This document shows positions 2,688 to 30,083 of a DNA stretch of 39,509 nucleotides, piece after piece. The first letter of the stretch is position 1. Each line of letters starts with the position of its first letter. The stretch is from Chthonomonadales bacterium (GTDB lineage: Bacteria > Armatimonadota > Chthonomonadetes > Chthonomonadales > CAJBBX01). The notes under the pieces are model-generated. The model did no database searches, was not told where the DNA came from, and saw nothing but the letters and a program-made list of their open reading frames with translations. Both the position numbers and the translations under genes were made by a program. The DNA lies in assembly GCA_027459625.1 (NCBI GenBank), contig DAIDHP010000038.1, forward strand, positions 1-39,509, in the 5' to 3' direction.

Positions 2688-5288
2688 TCAGTCTCCTTTA
2701 ATCCATTTCAAGGCGAAATCCCCCGGGGAGAATCCGCGTTCCGGATCAAGACGCAGGCTGGTGATACGATGTCCCTTCCAGTAAGGGTTTTCTCCGATCG
2801 GTATATGGTACACTTGGAAATCGGTTCCCGGCTTTATCGGGAAACGGACACACATCTGTTCCAGCGTGGCTTTCGCTCCCTCCGCCTGAAAGTAGATTTG
2901 CGCGTAGGTTCCGCAGGAGACTTTCATGCATATTGTAATCTCCTTCACACTGTCGGGAGCCAAATTGATTGCAGGAGCGATCACGTAGGGATCAGTACCG
3001 ATAATCCTTGCTGTTAGCGCACCGTCCACGATCCTGAGGGGGCTCAGATTGCTTTGCCCCATCCATCCCCGGGCGTCATGATTGAATTGGAAATCCAATC
3101 GAGTTAGAGCGGGGGGACTGGGAGGTGCGTATTTCATTCTCTTACCCTCCACCCATGCATCGCCATTGGAAGGATTGAGGCGCATGACAACCTTGCCGTT
3201 CTCCCAAAGGGTGGGTTGGGTTTGCCCCATTACTTTCTCTCCCCGAGGATTGAGATATTGCATGCCTGCGTTGTCATCACGTATGAAATCCACCCTGTGC
3301 AGTGTTCCTGGAGCGCAAGCCGAGTACGCCAGGAGTTTCCCCGTTCCATCCCAAGCAATCCAACCGGATTGCGGGAGGATTACGGTATCCCCCCCGGCTT
3401 TTACGGAGAAATCGTCGGGAAGGCGATTAACAATAATATTCAAACCGTTTTGATATTGCACCCATATTCTTTTGAGGCAATCAGGTTGCGGGTTCCAATC
3501 CGCTGTCAGGGGGTTCACGCCCGCTTTCAGGATATCCTGGAGGGTAACCCAATGACCATCGCTCCAATAGCGCACATCCTTGACAGGTTGCAGTAGGTAG
3601 TGTGTTTGCAGCGTTCCGATTAGGAGGCACTCCGTGATCACGTAATCCCAAGGTGTGTTCGGATAGTAGAAGAGATACCCGCCGTTTCCGTAGAGTACTT
3701 CGGCGGCGCGGTAGTCGTCATACTGCTTCGGATCGCTCATGTAGTTCGCCGTGCCGGAACTGAATCGCTTGAAGGGCGGCATTTCGTAAAAGCGATACAT
3801 CAGCCCCATACCATAGAAGACGGAAAGTTGCTGCAAACGGTGAAGCTTAAATTCCGGTGTGATCGCGCGATGATATCCATCGAACATGCCGAAGTCACCG
3901 GTGTCCACATACTCCCCAAGAAGTTGTTCATCCATGTTGGATTCGCTGCCTAACGGACCGTGATGAATACTTTTGATGAGAAGCGCCAATTCCCGCTGAT
4001 ATTTAAGAGCCTGCGACATGGCTCCCGCATTTTTTTGATGCGCATTGTAGTCGATATAACCCCATGGCCCACCTGAGCTAGTCATCTGATCCGTAAAACT
4101 CGCGTTAGTGTGGAAAAGGTTTTGGATCTCAGTTTCTTGCCGTTTGGCTAGTGGCAGCCAGTCCGAAGGACGGGTGAACCACGCCTTGGTTCCGTCCGGT
4201 TTTAGCGCTGGCACCGCTTGACCTGCAAGAGCGCTTGGGGATAATGGACGGAGATATACGTAATTGGTGCGTAAGCCGAACTCTCCCACGCTCCTTGCGT
4301 ACTTTGACAGAGATTGAAAATCCTTAACGGAGCCGATTCCCGGGTTGGGGGGATACTTCGGCATGAGAATACTGTCGGGGTCCATGGAGTCGAATCCTCC
4401 CGCCTGCCAGTTCTCGAAGATGGTAAGGAAGCGAATCCTCTTCATTGTGATGGCCGAAAGATATCTCAGGAAGTATTCCGTATCCCGTGCGTTCCCGCCC
4501 CATACATCCAAAAAAATCGAGCGGGATAGCTCTTTGGTGTATTGACTTGGTAACTGGGCGGGTATCGGAACGGTGCGCCAGAGGTCCGTGCCAATGCGGA
4601 GTGAGAGTGTTTCGTTTAAGGGCATTCGCGTGCCATCGGTGCGAGGATTGTAAACGACATCCAGCGCAGCAGTGAAGGGTCCCTCCCCAGAGAACCGTTG
4701 ATCCGGCGCGTCCCAGGTGGAACCGCTGCTTTTAGCCATATCCCAGATCACCGCCACATACACGTTCTTATTGGGATACCACGCTATGAGAGGCCAGAAG
4801 GGCTGTGCATATGCCTCGGCATTGCGAGTATAGCTGAAGCGAATCCATTTCCCTTGTCCTATCGTCTCTCCGGCGCCCATTCTCGTGCAGGATAATGAAG
4901 CATCATGGATATGAAGTTTCAATCCCCCTTTGTCAGGAAGGATATCGATGGTGTATTCCGCCGTTTCCCCCTTATCCTGTACTTGATAACGACAGGATGC
5001 GCCTTTGGCAAAAGGTTGTGAAGAGACCAGCGATGTATCAAGCGATCCTGCGGATTTCTCGCCGTCCTTGAAGAGGAATGTCGGACCAAAGCCATGTAAC
5101 GGCTCCAATGTCATACCGTTGCATTCAGCGGTCAACTTCCGCGAGGATGGGGAGTAGCGATAGGTTACTTCTCCCACTCTCCATGAATACCCGTTCGGCG
5201 TAGAAAAGCAAGGGCTTGTAAGAGTTGTTAAACCCATGAACAGGAGTATTATCAAAATCCGGTTTGCATACAATTTGCTCAGGATCAT
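2688..5288 (-). CDS. Large secreted glycoside-hydrolase-like protein
   Basis: The 866-residue product starts with a Sec-type signal peptide (about residues 1-29, hydrophobic core Ile-Leu-Ile-Ile-Leu-Leu-Phe). The N-terminal third is beta-rich, like a sugar-binding sandwich. A middle region of about residues 255-600 has the alternating strand/helix pattern and aromatic/acidic motifs of a TIM-barrel glycosidase. The last 130 residues look like a jelly-roll carbohydrate-binding module. I cannot place it in a numbered GH family or point to catalytic residues with confidence; DUF5696/GH101-like proteins are one possibility. The start is supported by GGAGGG with a five-base spacer. It is divergent from the GH51 gene across a 312-bp gap, and the two probably act on the same type of polymer outside the cytoplasm. 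Confidence 0.65.
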   Translation of the reverse strand: MILSKLYANRILIILLFMGLTTLTSPCFSTPNGYSWRVGEVTYRYSPSSRKLTAECNGMTLEPLHGFGPTFLFKDGEKSAGSLDTSLVSSQPFAKGASCRYQVQDKGETAEYTIDILPDKGGLKLHIHDASLSCTRMGAGETIGQGKWIRFSYTRNAEAYAQPFWPLIAWYPNKNVYVAVIWDMAKSSGSTWDAPDQRFSGEGPFTAALDVVYNPRTDGTRMPLNETLSLRIGTDLWRTVPIPAQLPSQYTKELSRSIFLDVWGGNARDTEYFLRYLSAITMKRIRFLTIFENWQAGGFDSMDPDSILMPKYPPNPGIGSVKDFQSLSKYARSVGEFGLRTNYVYLRPLSPSALAGQAVPALKPDGTKAWFTRPSDWLPLAKRQETEIQNLFHTNASFTDQMTSSGGPWGYIDYNAHQKNAGAMSQALKYQRELALLIKSIHHGPLGSESNMDEQLLGEYVDTGDFGMFDGYHRAITPEFKLHRLQQLSVFYGMGLMYRFYEMPPFKRFSSGTANYMSDPKQYDDYRAAEVLYGNGGYLFYYPNTPWDYVITECLLIGTLQTHYLLQPVKDVRYWSDGHWVTLQDILKAGVNPLTADWNPQPDCLKRIWVQYQNGLNIIVNRLPDDFSVKAGGDTVILPQSGWIAWDGTGKLLAYSACAPGTLHRVDFIRDDNAGMQYLNPRGEKVMGQTQPTLWENGKVVMRLNPSNGDAWVEGKRMKYAPPSPPALTRLDFQFNHDARGWMGQSNLSPLRIVDGALTARIIGTDPYVIAPAINLAPDSVKEITICMKVSCGTYAQIYFQAEGAKATLEQMCVRFPIKPGTDFQVYHIPIGENPYWKGHRITSLRLDPERGFSPGDFALKWIKGD

Positions 5289-8192: not shown

Positions 8193-9428
8193 TCAATAAA
8201 AGAGAGTGATCGCTCCCATGAGGGAGTTATTACCCGGGCGCATCTGGTTCCGATATTCCAGTTGATAACGAACATAATGCGTGGGCTTCATCGCCAAAGT
8301 GAATGTGTACGCTTCCGTGGTGGCGTTGAGCGGGGACCCGATCTGATCCGAACCTTTAACGGTGTCGTATCGTGCCATGAACGCATAGCGATCCCCGAGA
8401 TAGGCGTCCGCCTCCAGCAGGTTCCCGAAGCTGTTGGCTGTATCCCCCGCTGCATCGGTCTTATCCTTGCCCCACAGAGCGCCATAATTCAACTCCGCAG
8501 AGAAGGGTAGGTGCGTTTCGTCGCCTTGGTAGAACGTGTGTGAAAGGCTCGCAAACAAGCCAATGCGATCGAACACATCCGTGAAGCTATCCACGGGATA
8601 GTTATTCGGATCCGTAGTGGCGGGGAAAGGAGTCACTCCGTGATAATACAATGCTGAAAGGGAGCTTCCTTCATTGCCGATCAGCCAATCCCCTTGCACT
8701 TCGTAATCGCTGGCGCGATGCCCCACGAGTGTGACATCGCCTGCTCCGGTAGAATCCACACCGTTCAGCCAGGATAATTTCCCGGTAACGTTGTGATTGG
8801 TGTAACCGAATTCTACGCCTCTTTCCAATCCGGCCATACTGAAATTGCCCTGACCATTGTCAAATAGCGGGCCATTGGAGCCGAACATCATCGCATCATT
8901 GATGGAGAAATCCCTGTCGCCACCCAGCTTGAAACCGGACATTACCGGGATTTGCCCTGCGCGAATGGTGAAGAAGTTGTTCGGGGAGCCAACGTTGTAC
9001 TGTCCCCACGCCTCCGCGAAACCGGAACTGGCTTCGGATTGCGAGGAGAACTCATACATTACTTTGGTGGTGAGATTATTGGTGACAGGCGTGGCTAGTT
9101 GCACCTCGGCTCCATCCAGATTGAACCCTGTGTTGCCACCTGGATTGGTGTCTTGGAAGGAGAAGTAGGTGAAGAAGCTCATGGTGTCGAACAGATCGGC
9201 CGCCTTCGCCTTCACGCCGGGCAGGCGATATCCGTTTCGGTAAAATTTATAACCGAATGGAGTCAGGCGAGGAGCCATGGTGTGGCATGTACTACAGGGC
9301 AGCCCGTAGCGAATTGCAAACTGCGGCAAAGCGTTCGCCTGGCGGGAAACTCCGCTGAGTAGGATCGCTCCCAGCGCCGTGACGACGAACAAGGGGGTTA
9401 CTATGCCCCGTTTGAACAACCGTTTCAT
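8193..9428 (-). CDS. Cyc2-like fused monoheme cytochrome-porin of the outer membrane
   Basis: The 411-residue product has a signal peptide (about 1-33) and then a single c-type heme motif, C45-S-T-C48-H49. The stretch around it (Pro-x-Phe-Ala, Gly-x-x-Cys-x-x-Cys-His, then Leu-Thr-Pro-Phe-Gly and Asn-Gly-Tyr) matches the N-terminal signature I know from Cyc2-type fused cytochrome-porins. The remaining 350 residues alternate polar and aromatic residues with Gly/Asn turns and end in Leu-Phe-Tyr, as outer-membrane beta-barrels do. In iron oxidisers Cyc2 carries electrons from extracellular Fe(II) across the outer membrane. Distant homologues have unproven roles, and no other electron-transfer gene is nearby. 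The start has AGGAGG with a five-base spacer. The fusion architecture is clear; the electron donor or acceptor is not. Confidence 0.8.
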   Translation of the reverse strand: MKRLFKRGIVTPLFVVTALGAILLSGVSRQANALPQFAIRYGLPCSTCHTMAPRLTPFGYKFYRNGYRLPGVKAKAADLFDTMSFFTYFSFQDTNPGGNTGFNLDGAEVQLATPVTNNLTTKVMYEFSSQSEASSGFAEAWGQYNVGSPNNFFTIRAGQIPVMSGFKLGGDRDFSINDAMMFGSNGPLFDNGQGNFSMAGLERGVEFGYTNHNVTGKLSWLNGVDSTGAGDVTLVGHRASDYEVQGDWLIGNEGSSLSALYYHGVTPFPATTDPNNYPVDSFTDVFDRIGLFASLSHTFYQGDETHLPFSAELNYGALWGKDKTDAAGDTANSFGNLLEADAYLGDRYAFMARYDTVKGSDQIGSPLNATTEAYTFTLAMKPTHYVRYQLEYRNQMRPGNNSLMGAITLFY

Positions 9429-9629: not shown

Positions 9630-9661
9630 GAAAAAAAGCCATGGTTCAATGAACCATGGCT
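9630..9661 (-). terminator. Rho-independent terminator of the sigma-factor gene
   Basis: AGCCATGGTTCA (9637-9648) and TGAACCATGGCT (9650-9661) are perfect reverse complements around one central base. On the minus strand the stem runs into eight T residues. It separates the sigma-factor gene from the downstream cytochrome-porin gene, so the two are probably transcribed independently. Confidence 0.9.
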
Positions 9662-12255: not shown

Positions 12256-12582
12256 AGTATCGTCTTTCCTCGGTTGCACATAAGTAGTGGCTCAGGTATT
12301 TACTTTAAGAGACGAAAAGGTGTCTCGTCCTCGCCTCGGGAATTTCACAAGGCGGTACGTATACGCTTTGGTCATGGAGAGTTGCCATGAGGATCGGGAA
12401 ATATCATTTGTCAATACCGTATCACCGCAATGATGTTGGGAATCTTCTGCATAGATTGTGGCTCGCTTGGTCGTTGAGGGTTTTGTTGAAGACTAACACC
12501 GGTTTTTATGTGAGAAATATGCGAAAATAGCTTGCATCCTCTGTTTTCACGGGAATGCAACTCGGATAGGTTGCAGTGGGAT
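12256..12582. other. Gap between the sorting substrate and the exosortase
   Basis: No gene is apparent. A perfect 6-bp hairpin, TCATGG (12372-12377) and CCATGA (12385-12390), lies mid-gap without a T-run. A weak GAGAC/GTCTC pair lies near 12310. I do not recognise a riboswitch. A TTG at 12532 could extend the exosortase frame by 17 residues, but it lacks a ribosome binding site. Confidence 0.4.
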
Positions 12583-13485
12583 ATGTCATCAATTCAGGAA
12601 GTTAAAGCGAAAAAACGCGAGTTTCCAGCACCGCTATCGGCTCTTTTCCCGCTTATTGTGTATATTCTTTTATGGATACCCATCGCTTCGGAACTATGGA
12701 GCGAATGGAGATTGAATGAAGCTCTCTCTCAGGGACCTTTGATCGTTTTAATCGCCATTGGATTGATATGGTATCGAATTCCAACCATAGGAAAACTTGA
12801 ATCCTCCTCCGTTCCTGGTTTAATATTTCTGATTTGCTCCTCACTCCTCTATATTATGGCGGTTTGGGCGGATATCGTATTCCTCAAGACGATCTCCCTT
12901 TTGTTGATCGCCATCGGAGTGATATGGTATCTGGGCGGTTCCAAGGCGGCGATAAGTATGTCGGGACCAATCGGGTTTTTAGTATTCATCATTCCTTGGC
13001 CCACCACATTGGTGGACAGGATCAGTTTCCCCCTCCAGCTTGCAAGCAGCGCATATGCGGCGTTATTCGCCGGGATATGCGGACTTCCCGTTGTGCGAAA
13101 CGGCGTTCAGTTGTTCGTGCAAACTTCTCCCACCGCGAAACCGATATACAGCATTCTCGTGGCTCAGGCATGCAGCGGGATGACATCCCTGAACGTATTA
13201 TTGGCTCTCGGGTATTTAATCGCCTATTACACGGATGTGAAATGGGGATGGCGTTTCTTAATGGTCCTATGCGTCATCCCTTTGGCTCTGTTCCTGAACG
13301 CCACTCGATTAACGTTTGTCTTATTGGCGGGGGCGAAAATAAGTCCGTCCGTTGCGAAATGGGTGCATGATAACGAGGAGCCCGTTTTGGTCTTCTTCTC
13401 CAGTATTCTGCTGCTATTGCTGCGTCAAGGGCTGCTCACATGGACAGGCCCTGGTACCGCCGACCAATCGGAGAGCGCCAAATGA
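12583..13485 (+). CDS. Exosortase (transpeptidase-like membrane protein)
   Basis: Counted from the TTG at 12532, the frame shows the exosortase triad: C214 in Ala-Cys-Ser-Gly, R259 in Asn-Ala-Thr-Arg and H279 in Trp-Val-His-Asp. From the ATG used here these are C197, R242 and H262. About eight hydrophobic segments span the membrane. Exosortases cut PEP-CTERM-type signals and pass the protein to the outer surface, often attached to exopolysaccharide. I chose ATG 12583 because the family usually starts close before the first membrane segment, and the extra upstream residues are poorly supported. The obvious substrate is the gene just upstream. The stop overlaps the next start by four bases (ATGA), so it is co-translated with the EpsI-type gene. 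Confidence 0.9.
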   Translation: MSSIQEVKAKKREFPAPLSALFPLIVYILLWIPIASELWSEWRLNEALSQGPLIVLIAIGLIWYRIPTIGKLESSSVPGLIFLICSSLLYIMAVWADIVFLKTISLLLIAIGVIWYLGGSKAAISMSGPIGFLVFIIPWPTTLVDRISFPLQLASSAYAALFAGICGLPVVRNGVQLFVQTSPTAKPIYSILVAQACSGMTSLNVLLALGYLIAYYTDVKWGWRFLMVLCVIPLALFLNATRLTFVLLAGAKISPSVAKWVHDNEEPVLVFFSSILLLLLRQGLLTWTGPGTADQSESAK

Positions 13486-14120
13486 GACAAACGAGGTTTT
13501 TCATCGCCGGATGCGTAATGCTCGTGGCATTGTTTGGAAATATATGGAATAAAAGCATTGAGAACGCCTCCTATGCCGGTTCCGATGTCATCGCGAATTT
13601 AAACATCGATTACCACGGATGGAAGACTACCAACGGTACGATCAGCGCCGGCGACTTGAAGTTGCTTCGTCCCGATTCGTATCTCATTCGGCAATATCTC
13701 TCTCCTGATAAAAGCCAGGAGGTAGATTTGGCTGTCATTGCCGGACATCGTAAGCAGAGCATCCATACTCCGGGTTTCTGCATGGTGGGCGGCGGTTGGG
13801 AAATTACAAGCAAGCAACCCGTCACGGTTCACTCGTCCGTCGGCCCCATACAAGCGATGCAATCCTTCATGACTCAATCCGGCGAGCGGTTGGTGGCGTT
13901 GTATTTTTACACGGATGGCTCGTATAGCACCGACAACCTGATTAAGTTTCAAGCCGTGGAGTTGTTGAAGCGTATCGAACGGCGCGCCCCGGAAGGAGCG
14001 TTGGTGAGGGTGATCGTGCCCGTTAGAGGCGATCCGAACCCCGCTGTAAGCCTCGCGCATGTTTTTTTACTAAACGCCGCTCCGAAGATCATGAGCGCTC
14101 TGAGATCGATTCAGCCTTAA
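13482..14120 (+). CDS. EpsI-type exosortase-associated protein (DUF3485)
   Basis: The 212-residue protein has one N-terminal membrane segment (about residues 5-22) and an extracytoplasmic domain. The domain carries the EpsI signature, a His followed after several residues by Cys and a Gly-Gly-Trp (His-Thr-Pro-Gly-Phe-Cys-Met-Val-Gly-Gly-Gly-Trp). EpsI domains occur either fused to the C-terminus of exosortases or as the next gene, and are thought to work with them; the biochemical role is unclear. The start at 13482 overlaps the exosortase stop. An upstream in-frame ATG at 13440 would bury the start inside the exosortase and is less likely. Confidence 0.85.
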   Translation: MRQTRFFIAGCVMLVALFGNIWNKSIENASYAGSDVIANLNIDYHGWKTTNGTISAGDLKLLRPDSYLIRQYLSPDKSQEVDLAVIAGHRKQSIHTPGFCMVGGGWEITSKQPVTVHSSVGPIQAMQSFMTQSGERLVALYFYTDGSYSTDNLIKFQAVELLKRIERRAPEGALVRVIVPVRGDPNPAVSLAHVFLLNAAPKIMSALRSIQP

Positions 14121-16912: not shown

Positions 16913-18433
16913 TTACTTCCCTGCGGGAAAGGACATCTCCTCCACGAAGATATCCTGGAACTCTGGGTCTTCGTTCAGCGAGAAGTGAGTTGTCTTGGCG
17001 CGAATATTCTTGAAGGTTTCCTCCGGAAGATCATTGGTGAAGAGAGCCATCTTCGCTCCGAGCAGTGCGGAATTCCCAACAGGCTCCACCTTCTCCAAGG
17101 GAACCTGAATTAAGCCTATTCTGCGGGCGCTCCCACGGTTAATGTAGTTGCCGAACGCGCCGGCGAGATAAAGGCAACTGAGGTCTTCCAGTTTCGCCCC
17201 CCATCTCTCCAGGAGAATCCTAACGCCTGCGGCGATTGCGCCTTTAGCGAGTTGCAGTTGGCGGATGTCCGTCTGTGTGAGACGGACCGGATCTTTCAAA
17301 AGAATGCTATCCACCTTTTCAGCGAAACGCCCCGTAGGTTTGATCGTTCCGTTTTCCAGCGCCGCAGCCACCGCATCCACGAGACCGCTTCCGCAGATGC
17401 CGCGCGGTTTTTCATTGCCTATCACCTCACAGTCGAAACCGTCCGCCAACGGGGACACCTTCCAAATAGCTCCCGTGGAGGCTCGCATGCCCATGCTGAT
17501 CTTCGCCCCTTCGAACGCAGGTCCTGCGGCGGTGGATGCGCAAATCAATCGGTTTTTATCCCCAATGACGATCTCGCCGTTTGTCCCAAGGTCCACGAGC
17601 CCCACTGGCTTTTCGCTATGATGCAGATTGGTGGCGAGCACGCCTGCGAGGATGTCGCTTCCCACGAAACTTCCCAACCCCGGGAGGAATTGAATCCGCG
17701 GTTCCCCGACGCCTTGCCACTCCAATTCCCTCGGCGTGAACGTCATCAACCCGTCGTTCGGAGATTCAAACGGATAATGAGAGAGCGGCTCCACGTCCAC
17801 GCCGCAGAACAGGTGATGCATGACGGTGTTGCCAACAAGGGTGATGCGACGCAATTCATATGGGGAAACATGCGCGGAATCCAAGGATTCCCGCACCATA
17901 TGAAGTATCTGCGTTCTGATGGCTTCGGTAAGTTCCTTCGCACCATCCCCCTCCATGGCGTATTGCACCCGGCTCATCACATCGCTGCCGAAACGCGCCT
18001 GGGGGTTCAACGCCGTGCGCACCGCGAGGATGCCTCCGTTTTGAAGATCAAGAAGCTGCGAGGCGAGGGTGGTGGTGCCGAGGTCCACGGCGATACCGTA
18101 ACCCTCCTGAGGGGTGAATTTGAAATTTGCTTCATTGGTGAGGATGCTGGTTTGCCAATTGCGAAGCTCTATGGTGATACTCTCGGTAACCTGAGCTTTG
18201 CACGCAAGGCGCCAGCCCTCTTTCAATTCCCGCTCTGAAAACGCATCCGAATCTTCCGGGGTGACGGGCAGAGCGCCTCGGGTGACTCGGATTTTGCATC
18301 CCTTGCATTTCCCTTGCCCCCCGCATGGAAACTCCACTCCCTGATCAAAAAGAATATCGCGTAGTTTCGCTCCCTTTTCAGTGGTGAGTTCCATGCCCGC
18401 AGGCTGAAGGAGTATATGACATATGTTTCGCAT
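16913..18433 (-). CDS. RACo-like reductive activator of corrinoid proteins (2Fe-2S ferredoxin plus DUF4445/ASKHA domain)
   Basis: This 506-residue protein begins with a plant-type ferredoxin domain holding C37, C43, C46 and C78, the four ligands of a 2Fe-2S cluster. A linker leads to a long ASKHA-like region with Val-Asp-Leu-Gly-Thr-Thr at about residue 115, a second Val-Asp-Leu-Gly-Thr-Asn-Gly motif, and Gly-Asn-Thr-Val-Met-His. RACo proteins use ATP to re-reduce inactive Co(II) corrinoid proteins of methyltransferase systems. The usual partners (corrinoid protein, methyltransferase, MtgC/MtaC types) are absent from the window, so this copy is an orphan. The ribosome binding site before ATG 18433 is weak. 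It is divergent from the GH2-type gene. Confidence 0.85.
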   Translation of the reverse strand: MRNICHILLQPAGMELTTEKGAKLRDILFDQGVEFPCGGQGKCKGCKIRVTRGALPVTPEDSDAFSERELKEGWRLACKAQVTESITIELRNWQTSILTNEANFKFTPQEGYGIAVDLGTTTLASQLLDLQNGGILAVRTALNPQARFGSDVMSRVQYAMEGDGAKELTEAIRTQILHMVRESLDSAHVSPYELRRITLVGNTVMHHLFCGVDVEPLSHYPFESPNDGLMTFTPRELEWQGVGEPRIQFLPGLGSFVGSDILAGVLATNLHHSEKPVGLVDLGTNGEIVIGDKNRLICASTAAGPAFEGAKISMGMRASTGAIWKVSPLADGFDCEVIGNEKPRGICGSGLVDAVAAALENGTIKPTGRFAEKVDSILLKDPVRLTQTDIRQLQLAKGAIAAGVRILLERWGAKLEDLSCLYLAGAFGNYINRGSARRIGLIQVPLEKVEPVGNSALLGAKMALFTNDLPEETFKNIRAKTTHFSLNEDPEFQDIFVEEMSFPAGK

Positions 18434-27542: not shown

Positions 27543-27569
27543 AAACCCGGGCGGGCGTCATTCGCCCGG
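27543..27569 (-). terminator. Probable terminator after the six-hairpin glycosidase gene
   Basis: CCGGGCG (27547-27553) and CGCCCGG (27563-27569) form a GC-rich 7-bp stem with a nine-base loop. On the minus strand it runs into four T residues. It overlaps the stop codon at 27558-27560 and would separate the glycosidase gene from dapL. Confidence 0.6.
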
Positions 27570-30083
27570 CTTGGGCATGGGGACGCCTTTTCTCAGATAT
27601 CCCGTGATGAAGGCGGTCTGAGCGTAGTAGGTGTCCGTAAGCAGACCTTCGTAACCGCACGGCGTTCCATCCCAACGCTTCCAGTCCACCCCGGAGCCAA
27701 CGCCGTTCTGGAACACCCCGTCCTTGTAGCCCTGCAACATTTGGAAAAGAATATGATTCGCCTCGGCTCGCCGGTTGAGGGCGTAAAGCGCCTGAATATA
27801 GAAATAGGCGAAACTGCCCGTTGCGCCTCCGTTTTCATAGTCCTGGAAGGAGTCGGAGCCGTTATCCTTGTGGGGTTGCCCCAACACCCCTCCCCCCGCA
27901 TAATCCTTTCGTGTGATGGGTATCAGATTGCCAGGCATGCCTATCCGGAAATTATCGTAGCCGACCTCCCGCATCTTCGCCTGCATGCGATCCATGATGG
28001 CGTTCCCCTCCTTAGGGGTCACCAGCCCGTAATCGATCGCGATGCCGTTTACGAAGGTGAAATAGTAATCGTGCAGTTTGCCGTCCTCGCTCCTCCACCC
28101 CGCAAGCACGCCGGTGGCGGGATCGTAAAATGTCTTGTAATACACGTCCTTGATCATTTGCGCCCGGTGATCATACATTTTTTCCTGCGATGTGCGCCCG
28201 AGGCGTCGTTCCAGGTCCGCTGCGGAGAGGAAGGCGCGGTAATCCAGCGCGTTGGCGTAGGCGTCCTTCCACCCGAAGCTGATTACATCCCACCAGTTGC
28301 TCGACCATTGCCCCGCGCCGTCGATTCCGGTCCCGCTGATTCCGCTGCGGGTGGATTCGGATAGTCCGTCGCCGTCCGCGTCCGCCGCGATAATCCGGTT
28401 GGCGTATTTTTCCACATCCTTGATATGTTTTCGGAGCCACCCTATGTCGTGCTGACCGTCCGCGTAATCCCAGCTTGAGATGACCAGGGCGGGATCGGTG
28501 TCCATGAAGACCTTGTCGTCGCCCCCGTATCCTTGCGCCCCGGCGAAGTAGCGGTCAAGGCTCGTACGAACCATGTCAAGCGCGGTGAAGTGCGGGAAAA
28601 GTTGCGGGGTGAAATACGCCTGATCCGCATATTCGTACATGCAGAAGAGGCAGTTATCGCTAATGGAGTTGTTGGAGAGGATACCTACATCCGGCCGGAA
28701 CTGAAAAATGTTCAACCACCCGCGTTTTAAGCCCGCAAAATCGGGGTTGGAATCCACGATGGTTTTGTCAGGATAGACGTTGTCGATTTCGAGGTCGAGG
28801 GTGGTCGTGTGGTCGCCCTTCTCCTCACTCACGGTTGCGTCCGTGTTGTCGCGGCTGGCTGTTTGCAGCGCGAACTCCTCCTCCCTTGCATTCCTGTCGC
28901 CTGTGAAGCGCATAAAGGGGTTCCCTCCGTGCGCGTTGATCAGGAGGGAGCCGTGATCGGGGAAATGGAGCAGGAACGGAAACTCCAGAACTCCCAACGC
29001 CTTGAGCTTGCCCATCGGTCCAGGAGGCGTGACCGCCGCGTTGAATAGCATCCTGAGCGGCGAGGAGTTCAGCGCCAAATAGCCATTCGGGACCTGGCGC
29101 ACGATGACAATTCGGATGCTCTTGGGCTCGATCGTAAAGGTGAGATCGTCCTTTTCAAGGTTTCCAAGCGAGACATCGAGATATTGCACCACGCTCCCCT
29201 TTTGAACCAGACGAAACGATGAGTCGGCGGACGAGTGTTTTTCGCTCCATGAATTGGCGACCATATCCGCACCGCTCGGCGATTTCAGCAAGTTGCGATC
29301 AAGGTTTCCATTCCCGCTCTCATCCACGTCGAAGAAGGAGATTCCCGGGCGGTCCAGAGGGAAAGCGACTTTCAGCCATGGGGAAGCGAAGAATATCTCG
29401 GTTTTGGTGATGGTCCCCGTAACGCCCTTCGGCATCCCTCCCTTAAGCAGGGATATCGATCTTACGGGCTGGACGGATGTCGTCGGAGCGGGCGTGATCG
29501 GCTTCCCAACCCACTCGCCGAACACCTGCAGTTCACTCGCCTGGCAGTAGTTGGGGAACTGCTTGTTGGAGGATCGGGTGATGAAGAGACGGAAGTTATC
29601 GCTGACAACGGGAGGGAATCGCACCGAAATGGATGGGTGCGCACTATCCAAATTGACGTTCCGACATTTGAACAATTGCCGACACGCCTCGCCATTCCTT
29701 GGAAGGTATTCGCCAATGAAATCGACGGGGGCGCCGATGTCGGCACGCCACAACGTCATTTTGTCAATGCGGGCGTAGCGAGGAAAATGAATCCAGACCC
29801 AATGCGGGTGCGGTTTGCTTAAATCCGTGTGCCATCGGTTGAAGGCTGGCGGATCGTTGGGTCCTCGGATGATACCGTCTATCAAGCGACTTGCGGGAGC
29901 CTTTCCGCCCGGGTCGAACGGGGATCCATGCCACTCCGAATCGGCGGAGATTGTGGAGCCGTTGGAAGCCAGTGCGACGTTGATTTCATCGCCGTTTGCG
30001 GCGCGCGCGGTGAAAGCCGAAACAAGGAGGAATGCCACTCCGAATATCACGACGCACACGAACGCTCTCTTCCTGAAAGACAT
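27558..30083 (-). CDS. Secreted protein with F5/8-type (discoidin) domain and six-hairpin glycosidase-like domain
   Basis: The 841-residue product has a signal peptide (about 1-29, ending Ala-Arg-Ala-Ala). Residues 33-192 look like an F5/8 type C (CBM32-like) domain, with a conserved Trp-x-Trp-Ile-His-Phe core. A beta-sandwich fills about 215-430. From about 440 the sequence is helical with Trp, Asp and Gly motifs typical of (alpha/alpha)6 glycosidases (Asp-Ala-Asp-Gly-Asp-Gly-Leu, Trp-Trp-Asp-Val, and a late Tyr-Glu-Asn-Gly-Gly). I cannot name the GH family. The gene starts 13 bases after pyrF with a strong AGGAG, so a secreted hydrolase is co-transcribed with nucleotide synthesis, an unusual pairing. 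Confidence 0.7.
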   Translation of the reverse strand: MSFRKRAFVCVVIFGVAFLLVSAFTARAANGDEINVALASNGSTISADSEWHGSPFDPGGKAPASRLIDGIIRGPNDPPAFNRWHTDLSKPHPHWVWIHFPRYARIDKMTLWRADIGAPVDFIGEYLPRNGEACRQLFKCRNVNLDSAHPSISVRFPPVVSDNFRLFITRSSNKQFPNYCQASELQVFGEWVGKPITPAPTTSVQPVRSISLLKGGMPKGVTGTITKTEIFFASPWLKVAFPLDRPGISFFDVDESGNGNLDRNLLKSPSGADMVANSWSEKHSSADSSFRLVQKGSVVQYLDVSLGNLEKDDLTFTIEPKSIRIVIVRQVPNGYLALNSSPLRMLFNAAVTPPGPMGKLKALGVLEFPFLLHFPDHGSLLINAHGGNPFMRFTGDRNAREEEFALQTASRDNTDATVSEEKGDHTTTLDLEIDNVYPDKTIVDSNPDFAGLKRGWLNIFQFRPDVGILSNNSISDNCLFCMYEYADQAYFTPQLFPHFTALDMVRTSLDRYFAGAQGYGGDDKVFMDTDPALVISSWDYADGQHDIGWLRKHIKDVEKYANRIIAADADGDGLSESTRSGISGTGIDGAGQWSSNWWDVISFGWKDAYANALDYRAFLSAADLERRLGRTSQEKMYDHRAQMIKDVYYKTFYDPATGVLAGWRSEDGKLHDYYFTFVNGIAIDYGLVTPKEGNAIMDRMQAKMREVGYDNFRIGMPGNLIPITRKDYAGGGVLGQPHKDNGSDSFQDYENGGATGSFAYFYIQALYALNRRAEANHILFQMLQGYKDGVFQNGVGSGVDWKRWDGTPCGYEGLLTDTYYAQTAFITGYLRKGVPMPKPGE

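Follow-up and report, generated by a model that had tools for sequence, protein, structure and literature searches.

The locus described here raises the question of whether a gene lying among glycosidase genes in a sugar-degrading bacterium encodes a Cyc2-type iron oxidase, and what its product might otherwise do. Cyc2 is used as a metagenome marker gene for microbial iron oxidation. It is an iron oxidase in a few characterised bacteria; for distant homologues, above all those of Cluster 3, the authors of the Cyc2 clusters regard the function as uncertain (PMC8406198), and a Cyc2 tree includes many organisms without known iron oxidation (PMC7029218). The window, by which we mean the whole stretch of DNA that was analysed (39,509 bp), is the entire contig C38 of a 4.55 Mb genome (G000) that is 96.55% complete, and the host is a member of the Armatimonadota, probably of the order Chthonomonadales.

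The open reading frame begins with ATG and runs without an internal stop to give a 411-residue protein consisting of a signal peptide, ALPQFAIRYGLPCSTCHTMAPRLTPFGYKFYRNGYRLPG, and a stretch of amphipathic strands that closes with LFY (Table 1). The heme site CSTCH lies in this intact frame exactly at residues 45-49, where an earlier note made from the DNA letters had placed it; it is preceded by ALPQFAIRYGLP, is followed by TMAPRLTPFG and further on by NGY, and contains the only two cysteines of the protein. In 200,000 shuffles of the residues the wider heme motif never arose, and CxxCH did so at a rate of 4.5e-5. Searches of Pfam, NCBIfam and PDB sequences gave no family for the protein.

Table 1. 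Coordinates of the Cyc2-like gene, its parts, the flanking hairpins and the partner genes of relatives
Feature	Position	Strand	Basis
Cyc2-like fused monoheme cytochrome-porin, 411 aa	8193..9428	-	intact ORF, homologue alignment, AlphaFold2
Signal peptide, residues 1-33 (cut after ANA, by eye)	9330..9428	-	sequence inspection
Heme domain, residues 34-69; CSTCH = residues 45-49 (9282-9296)	9222..9329	-	sequence, alignment, profile comparison
Predicted 16-strand barrel, residues 83-411	8196..9182	-	AlphaFold2, structure comparison
Terminator hairpin past gene end, kept in same-genus genome	8144..8173	-	
Terminator hairpin between upstream sigma-factor gene and Cyc2-like gene	9637..9661	-	
Secreted Cys-rich protein genes of relatives	L033:7263-7937, L034:7218-7892, L036:7077-7904; also G012, G018, G021		

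The structure of the protein was predicted with AlphaFold2. Using an 11-sequence alignment, the model had exactly 16 strands and a mean pLDDT of 65.9; a second run, for which the signal peptide was removed in order to place the heme domain, again gave 16 strands (mean pLDDT 62.8) and did not raise the confidence of that domain, which was below 50 in both models. The barrel-like remainder ending in Phe-Tyr described in the earlier note was borne out by both runs and by the LFY end, while the heme domain that it expected within the pore was modelled with low confidence only. VIA-align matched the model to OprO (Z 23.5), OprP (Z 23.4) and other 16-strand porins such as OmpT (24.2). OprO and OprP have served as templates for modelling Cyc2 (PMC8406198); since they are matched here among other 16-strand porins, the prediction points to a general porin fold, within which these two do not stand out. 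The two outcomes named beforehand as fatal to the Cyc2 reading, no barrel in the model and membership of some unrelated family of cytochromes, did not occur: the models have 16 strands and the heme domain matches that of Cyc2. We consider it confirmed that this is a real, intact gene; its product is a predicted pore, presumably in the outer membrane, fused to one heme.

The window protein has much in common with the Cyc2 proteins of Acidithiobacillus ferrooxidans, Mariprofundus ferrooxydans PV-1 and Clusters 1-3: a signal peptide (recognised by eye here) and behind it a single CxxCH near the N-terminus, AxPxFA before the heme site, PxL four residues past CxxCH (CHTMAPRL), a length of about 400 residues (at least 365 is expected, and 411 was found), and a fused 16-strand barrel of OprO/OprP-like fold, which is a prediction in this case. 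The motif AxPxFAR[QK][TY], upstream of the heme site, has been described as unique to Cyc2 (PMC8406198). It is absent in this strict form from the window protein (ALPQFAIRY, isoleucine for arginine) and from a second copy in the same genome (ALPPFAHRY, histidine for arginine). The Acidiphilium-type homologue (L052), which occurs on an Acidiphilium plasmid and likewise on one of Acidithiobacillus ferrooxidans, also departs from it (IPAFAAQT, alanine for arginine), so the motif does not hold without exception. Of the full Cyc2-type heme context that had been claimed, Phe-Ala before the site and Leu-Thr-Pro-Phe-Gly and Asn-Gly-Tyr after it were present, but FAIRY stands where Cyc2 has FAR[QK][TY].

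A profile comparison of the closest group of homologues with six proteobacterial Cyc2-like proteins, which are plasmid homologues and not the characterised Cyc2 proteins, gave a probability of 97.8 over 350 columns. This full-length score was rejected as proof of barrel homology, because splitting the alignment placed the signal in the heme domain: the heme domain alone (36 columns) matched proteobacterial Cyc2 with an E value of 2e-14, whereas the barrel alone gave 0.01, little better than shuffled columns (0.015-0.83). Homology to proteobacterial Cyc2 that is detectable by profile is confined to about 36 heme-domain residues, and the barrel sequence is not detectably related to the homologues tested. 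Given a Cyc2-like heme domain and architecture, an altered strict motif, and a barrel not detectably related in sequence, the protein was filed as Cyc2-like and not as Cyc2. The designation of a Cyc2-type fused cytochrome-porin holds for the monoheme and predicted 16-strand architecture, and in sequence for the heme domain only; the earlier note had nevertheless named the nearest known relative correctly. As far as sequence comparison goes, this Cyc2-like cytochrome-porin is divergent, duplicated and specific to its lineage.

Matches to the Cyc2-like family were found in 24 of the 101 genomes searched. Scanning the contigs of genomes with the single window protein gave no matches, and scanning them with the homologue alignment gave eleven loci. 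Phage records held no match to the protein; plasmid records held one, in Methylocystis, which led to the proteobacterial reference sequences. The closest group, eight uncharacterised Armatimonadota Cyc2-like proteins (L003-L010), aligned over the full length with 33-59% identity, the values against the window protein being given as 33-44%. Across nine relatives with identities down to 33% the heme region was conserved, and in an alignment of the window protein with nine homologues P35, F37, C45, C48, H49, P53, L55, F58, G59, Y60, F62, R64, G66 and R68 were invariant. The second copy in the window's genome (L048, C5:115226-116407) is about 60% identical to the window protein, and adjoins a flagellar cluster consisting of fliF, fliG, fliH, an ATPase gene, fliJ and a transglycosylase gene. 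In a same-genus genome (G001) one contig ends with the C-terminal part of an orthologue; this fragment is convergent with an arabinofuranosidase gene as in the window, and both terminators are kept.

A tree of 36 sequences was constructed with midpoint rooting only, and its Cyc2 references were the six proteobacterial homologues, with no Cluster 1 or Cluster 3 sequences. In it the two copies of the window's genome were sisters (100/100) within a ten-member clade (100/100) shared with L003-L010, and the proteobacterial homologues grouped apart, with a branch of 1.97 dividing their clade from that of the window protein. Seven of the eight L003-L010 proteins keep FAR and one has FTR, while the window protein has FAI. 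They differ further in their surroundings, as six of their genomes, all order-level relatives (G012, G013, G016, G018, G019, G021), have directly upstream of the Cyc2-like gene and on the same strand a gene for a conserved, secreted Cys-rich protein of about 225 aa (CxxCG ... CxMCxC ... C). This protein belongs to no Pfam or NCBIfam family, and a search of the window's genome for it gave no match. In a different, sister sub-clade of Armatimonadota Cyc2-like proteins (L012, L018, L026), the gene immediately upstream encodes a di-heme MauG/cytochrome c peroxidase-type protein.

The neighbours of the gene in the window encode a sulfatase, an arabinofuranosidase, a sigma factor, a pentapeptide protein, an exosortase, a DUF3485 protein, an epimerase, a nucleotide-sugar dehydrogenase and a GH2 protein, and the earlier note was right to place the gene in a sugar degrader. 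Two convergent terminators lie downstream of the Cyc2-like gene, and upstream a hairpin splits it from the sigma-factor gene, so that it is probably transcribed alone, judging by the hairpins. An operon shared with the sigma-factor gene was weighed and discarded, as the terminator that separates the two is strong. No other cytochrome gene was found in the window. In each of the seven proteobacterial Cyc2-like plasmid records examined (two of them near-identical), by contrast, a c-type cytochrome lies within about 2.2 kb; the window gene is also unlike Cyc2 in having no iron-oxidiser context and in occurring as two copies specific to its lineage. The exosortase-family gene (TTG start listed) and the DUF3485 (EpsI-type) gene that follows it occupy bp 12532-14120, in surroundings that resemble an exopolysaccharide locus with the epimerase and nucleotide-sugar dehydrogenase genes. 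Two long reading frames, at 2688-5288 (866 aa) and 27558-30083 (841 aa), match no Pfam family.

The statement that the locus has no other redox genes is essentially true of the window, where the sole other iron-sulfur gene found encodes a RACo-type activator (16913-18433), but it is false for the genome, which has an ACIII-like complex, cytochrome oxidase and cytochromes c. The ACIII-like cluster includes a five-heme and a monoheme cytochrome and lies beside COX1 and a COX2-cytochrome c fusion; further monoheme cytochromes c (one of 129 aa), cytochrome c assembly genes and one Omp85 protein are also encoded. The search for periplasmic cytochromes and terminal oxidases suggested in the earlier note found both, as in a Cyc2 pathway, and the Cyc2-like protein could feed this respiratory chain. 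None of the five Cytochrom_C matches in the genome is a di-heme Cyc1-like protein, and apart from the ACIII-like subunit no multiheme cytochrome was found with the Cytochrom_c3_2 model. An MtrAB/PioAB/MtoAB-type system was not found: a search for the MtrB/PioB barrel (PF11854) gave no match in this 96.55% complete genome. RuBisCO-based autotrophy and a link of the Cyc2-like protein to an LPMO were also considered; neither RuBisCO nor LPMO_10 was found in the genome. The products of two more COX1-family genes, at about 765 aa, are as long as quinol-dependent nitric oxide reductases.

The function that we tentatively favour, at a little less than an even chance, is that this divergent Cyc2-like protein relays electrons through the outer membrane to the cytochrome c pool, Fe(II) being the leading candidate donor. 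The 16-strand barrel would carry a short N-terminal domain with one covalent heme c, in a Cyc2-like build; a small reduced compound, most likely Fe(II), would reach the heme via the pore and donate an electron, which would pass to a periplasmic cytochrome c and on to cytochrome c oxidase. In a sugar-degrading aerobe this could provide a supplementary source of energy or remove Fe(II), and would not amount to lithoautotrophic growth. Read directly from the DNA are the intact gene and its heme site, a conserved family with a heme domain homologous to that of Cyc2, and the oxidase, ACIII-like and cytochrome c genes of the genome; the barrel is predicted, and the outer-membrane location, heme attachment, and electron flow and its inward direction would follow from these. 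Arguing for the relay are the conserved heme domain in an intact gene, the syntenic fragment in another species, the 16-strand models with their OprO and OprP matches, the match of the heme domain to proteobacterial Cyc2, the Omp85, cytochrome c assembly, ACIII-like, oxidase and monoheme cytochrome c genes, and a search for RuBisCO that found none. Arguing against it are the altered strict motif, the barrel without detectable homology, the lack of an adjacent cytochrome, the pLDDT below 50 of the heme domain, and the uncertain function of distant homologues (PMC8406198). Fe(II) is perhaps the donor, and is the least certain element of the relay.

The same architecture might instead serve a donor or acceptor other than iron, for example another metal, a phenolic or a humic compound, the clade then being a Cyc2-like relay with a different partner. 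We consider this somewhat doubtful. The motif is altered in both copies of the window's genome, their clade (100/100) is far from proteobacterial Cyc2, there is no cytochrome neighbour, and the six order-level relatives have the secreted Cys-rich gene upstream in its place; however, the rest of the heme domain is well conserved, the Arg of FAR is absent in the Acidiphilium-type homologue as well, and the Cys-rich partner is missing from the window's genome. A stronger form of this idea, that the Armatimonadota proteins are a separate cytochrome-porin branch, distinguished by a barrel of its own, by the altered heme motif and, among relatives, by the secreted Cys-rich partner replacing the cytochrome, and exchange electrons with a non-iron partner, appears improbable; if true, it would be an undescribed outer-membrane redox function for sugar-degrading bacteria. 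Electron export, outward to Fe(III), humic substances or redox enzymes attacking polysaccharides, is decidedly improbable. It would fit a gene beside glycosidase and sulfatase genes, and the direction of flow cannot be read from a sequence, but neither LPMO_10 nor an MtrB/PioB barrel was found in the genome, nor, with the Cytochrom_c3_2 model, a multiheme cytochrome beyond the ACIII-like subunit, the glycosidase gene is convergent and set apart by terminators with no shared operon, and the second copy adjoins flagellar genes instead. A porin whose heme domain is structural, sensing or detoxifying (e.g. against peroxide), carrying no respiratory current, is very unlikely, as the MauG/peroxidase-type neighbour of the sister sub-clade that would suit it is missing from the window's clade, and the heme site and its surroundings are conserved as in electron-transfer Cyc2.

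The Fe(II) relay that we favour has a precedent. A Cyc2 of Cluster 3 was published in 2022 from the Armatimonadota MAG mg022 (class-level clade HRBIN16, Katase hot spring), and Fe(II) oxidation by this heterotroph was already suggested (PMC9671151). The two cases share the phylum, a chemoorganoheterotrophic host and suggested Fe(II) oxidation, and differ in that mg022 is of another class-level lineage and its protein, which we liken to the window protein by description, was reported as Cluster 3 (PMC9671151). An outer-membrane electron-exchange role is consequently not undescribed for heterotrophic Armatimonadota, and the novelty claimed in the earlier note, of a role not yet described for such an organism, was lost to this publication. 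A sugar-degrading member of the Armatimonadota in which a heme-domain match comes with a barrel not detectably related, a broken motif and no partner cytochrome marks a limit to the safety of Cyc2 as a marker, and the Armatimonadota set provides proteins for testing whether iron oxidation extends to distant Cyc2-like proteins.

Other surroundings of Cyc2-like genes were observed among the loci collected. In two Acidobacteria MAGs (L037, L038) the gene is followed by molybdopterin/Fe-S, ferredoxin-type, NrfD and 4-heme cytochrome genes, and in L038 a 10-heme cytochrome is also encoded nearby. One Cyc2-like region is shared, together with its flanking genes, by a plasmid of Acidithiobacillus ferrooxidans and one of Acidiphilium cryptum (L052 and L053).
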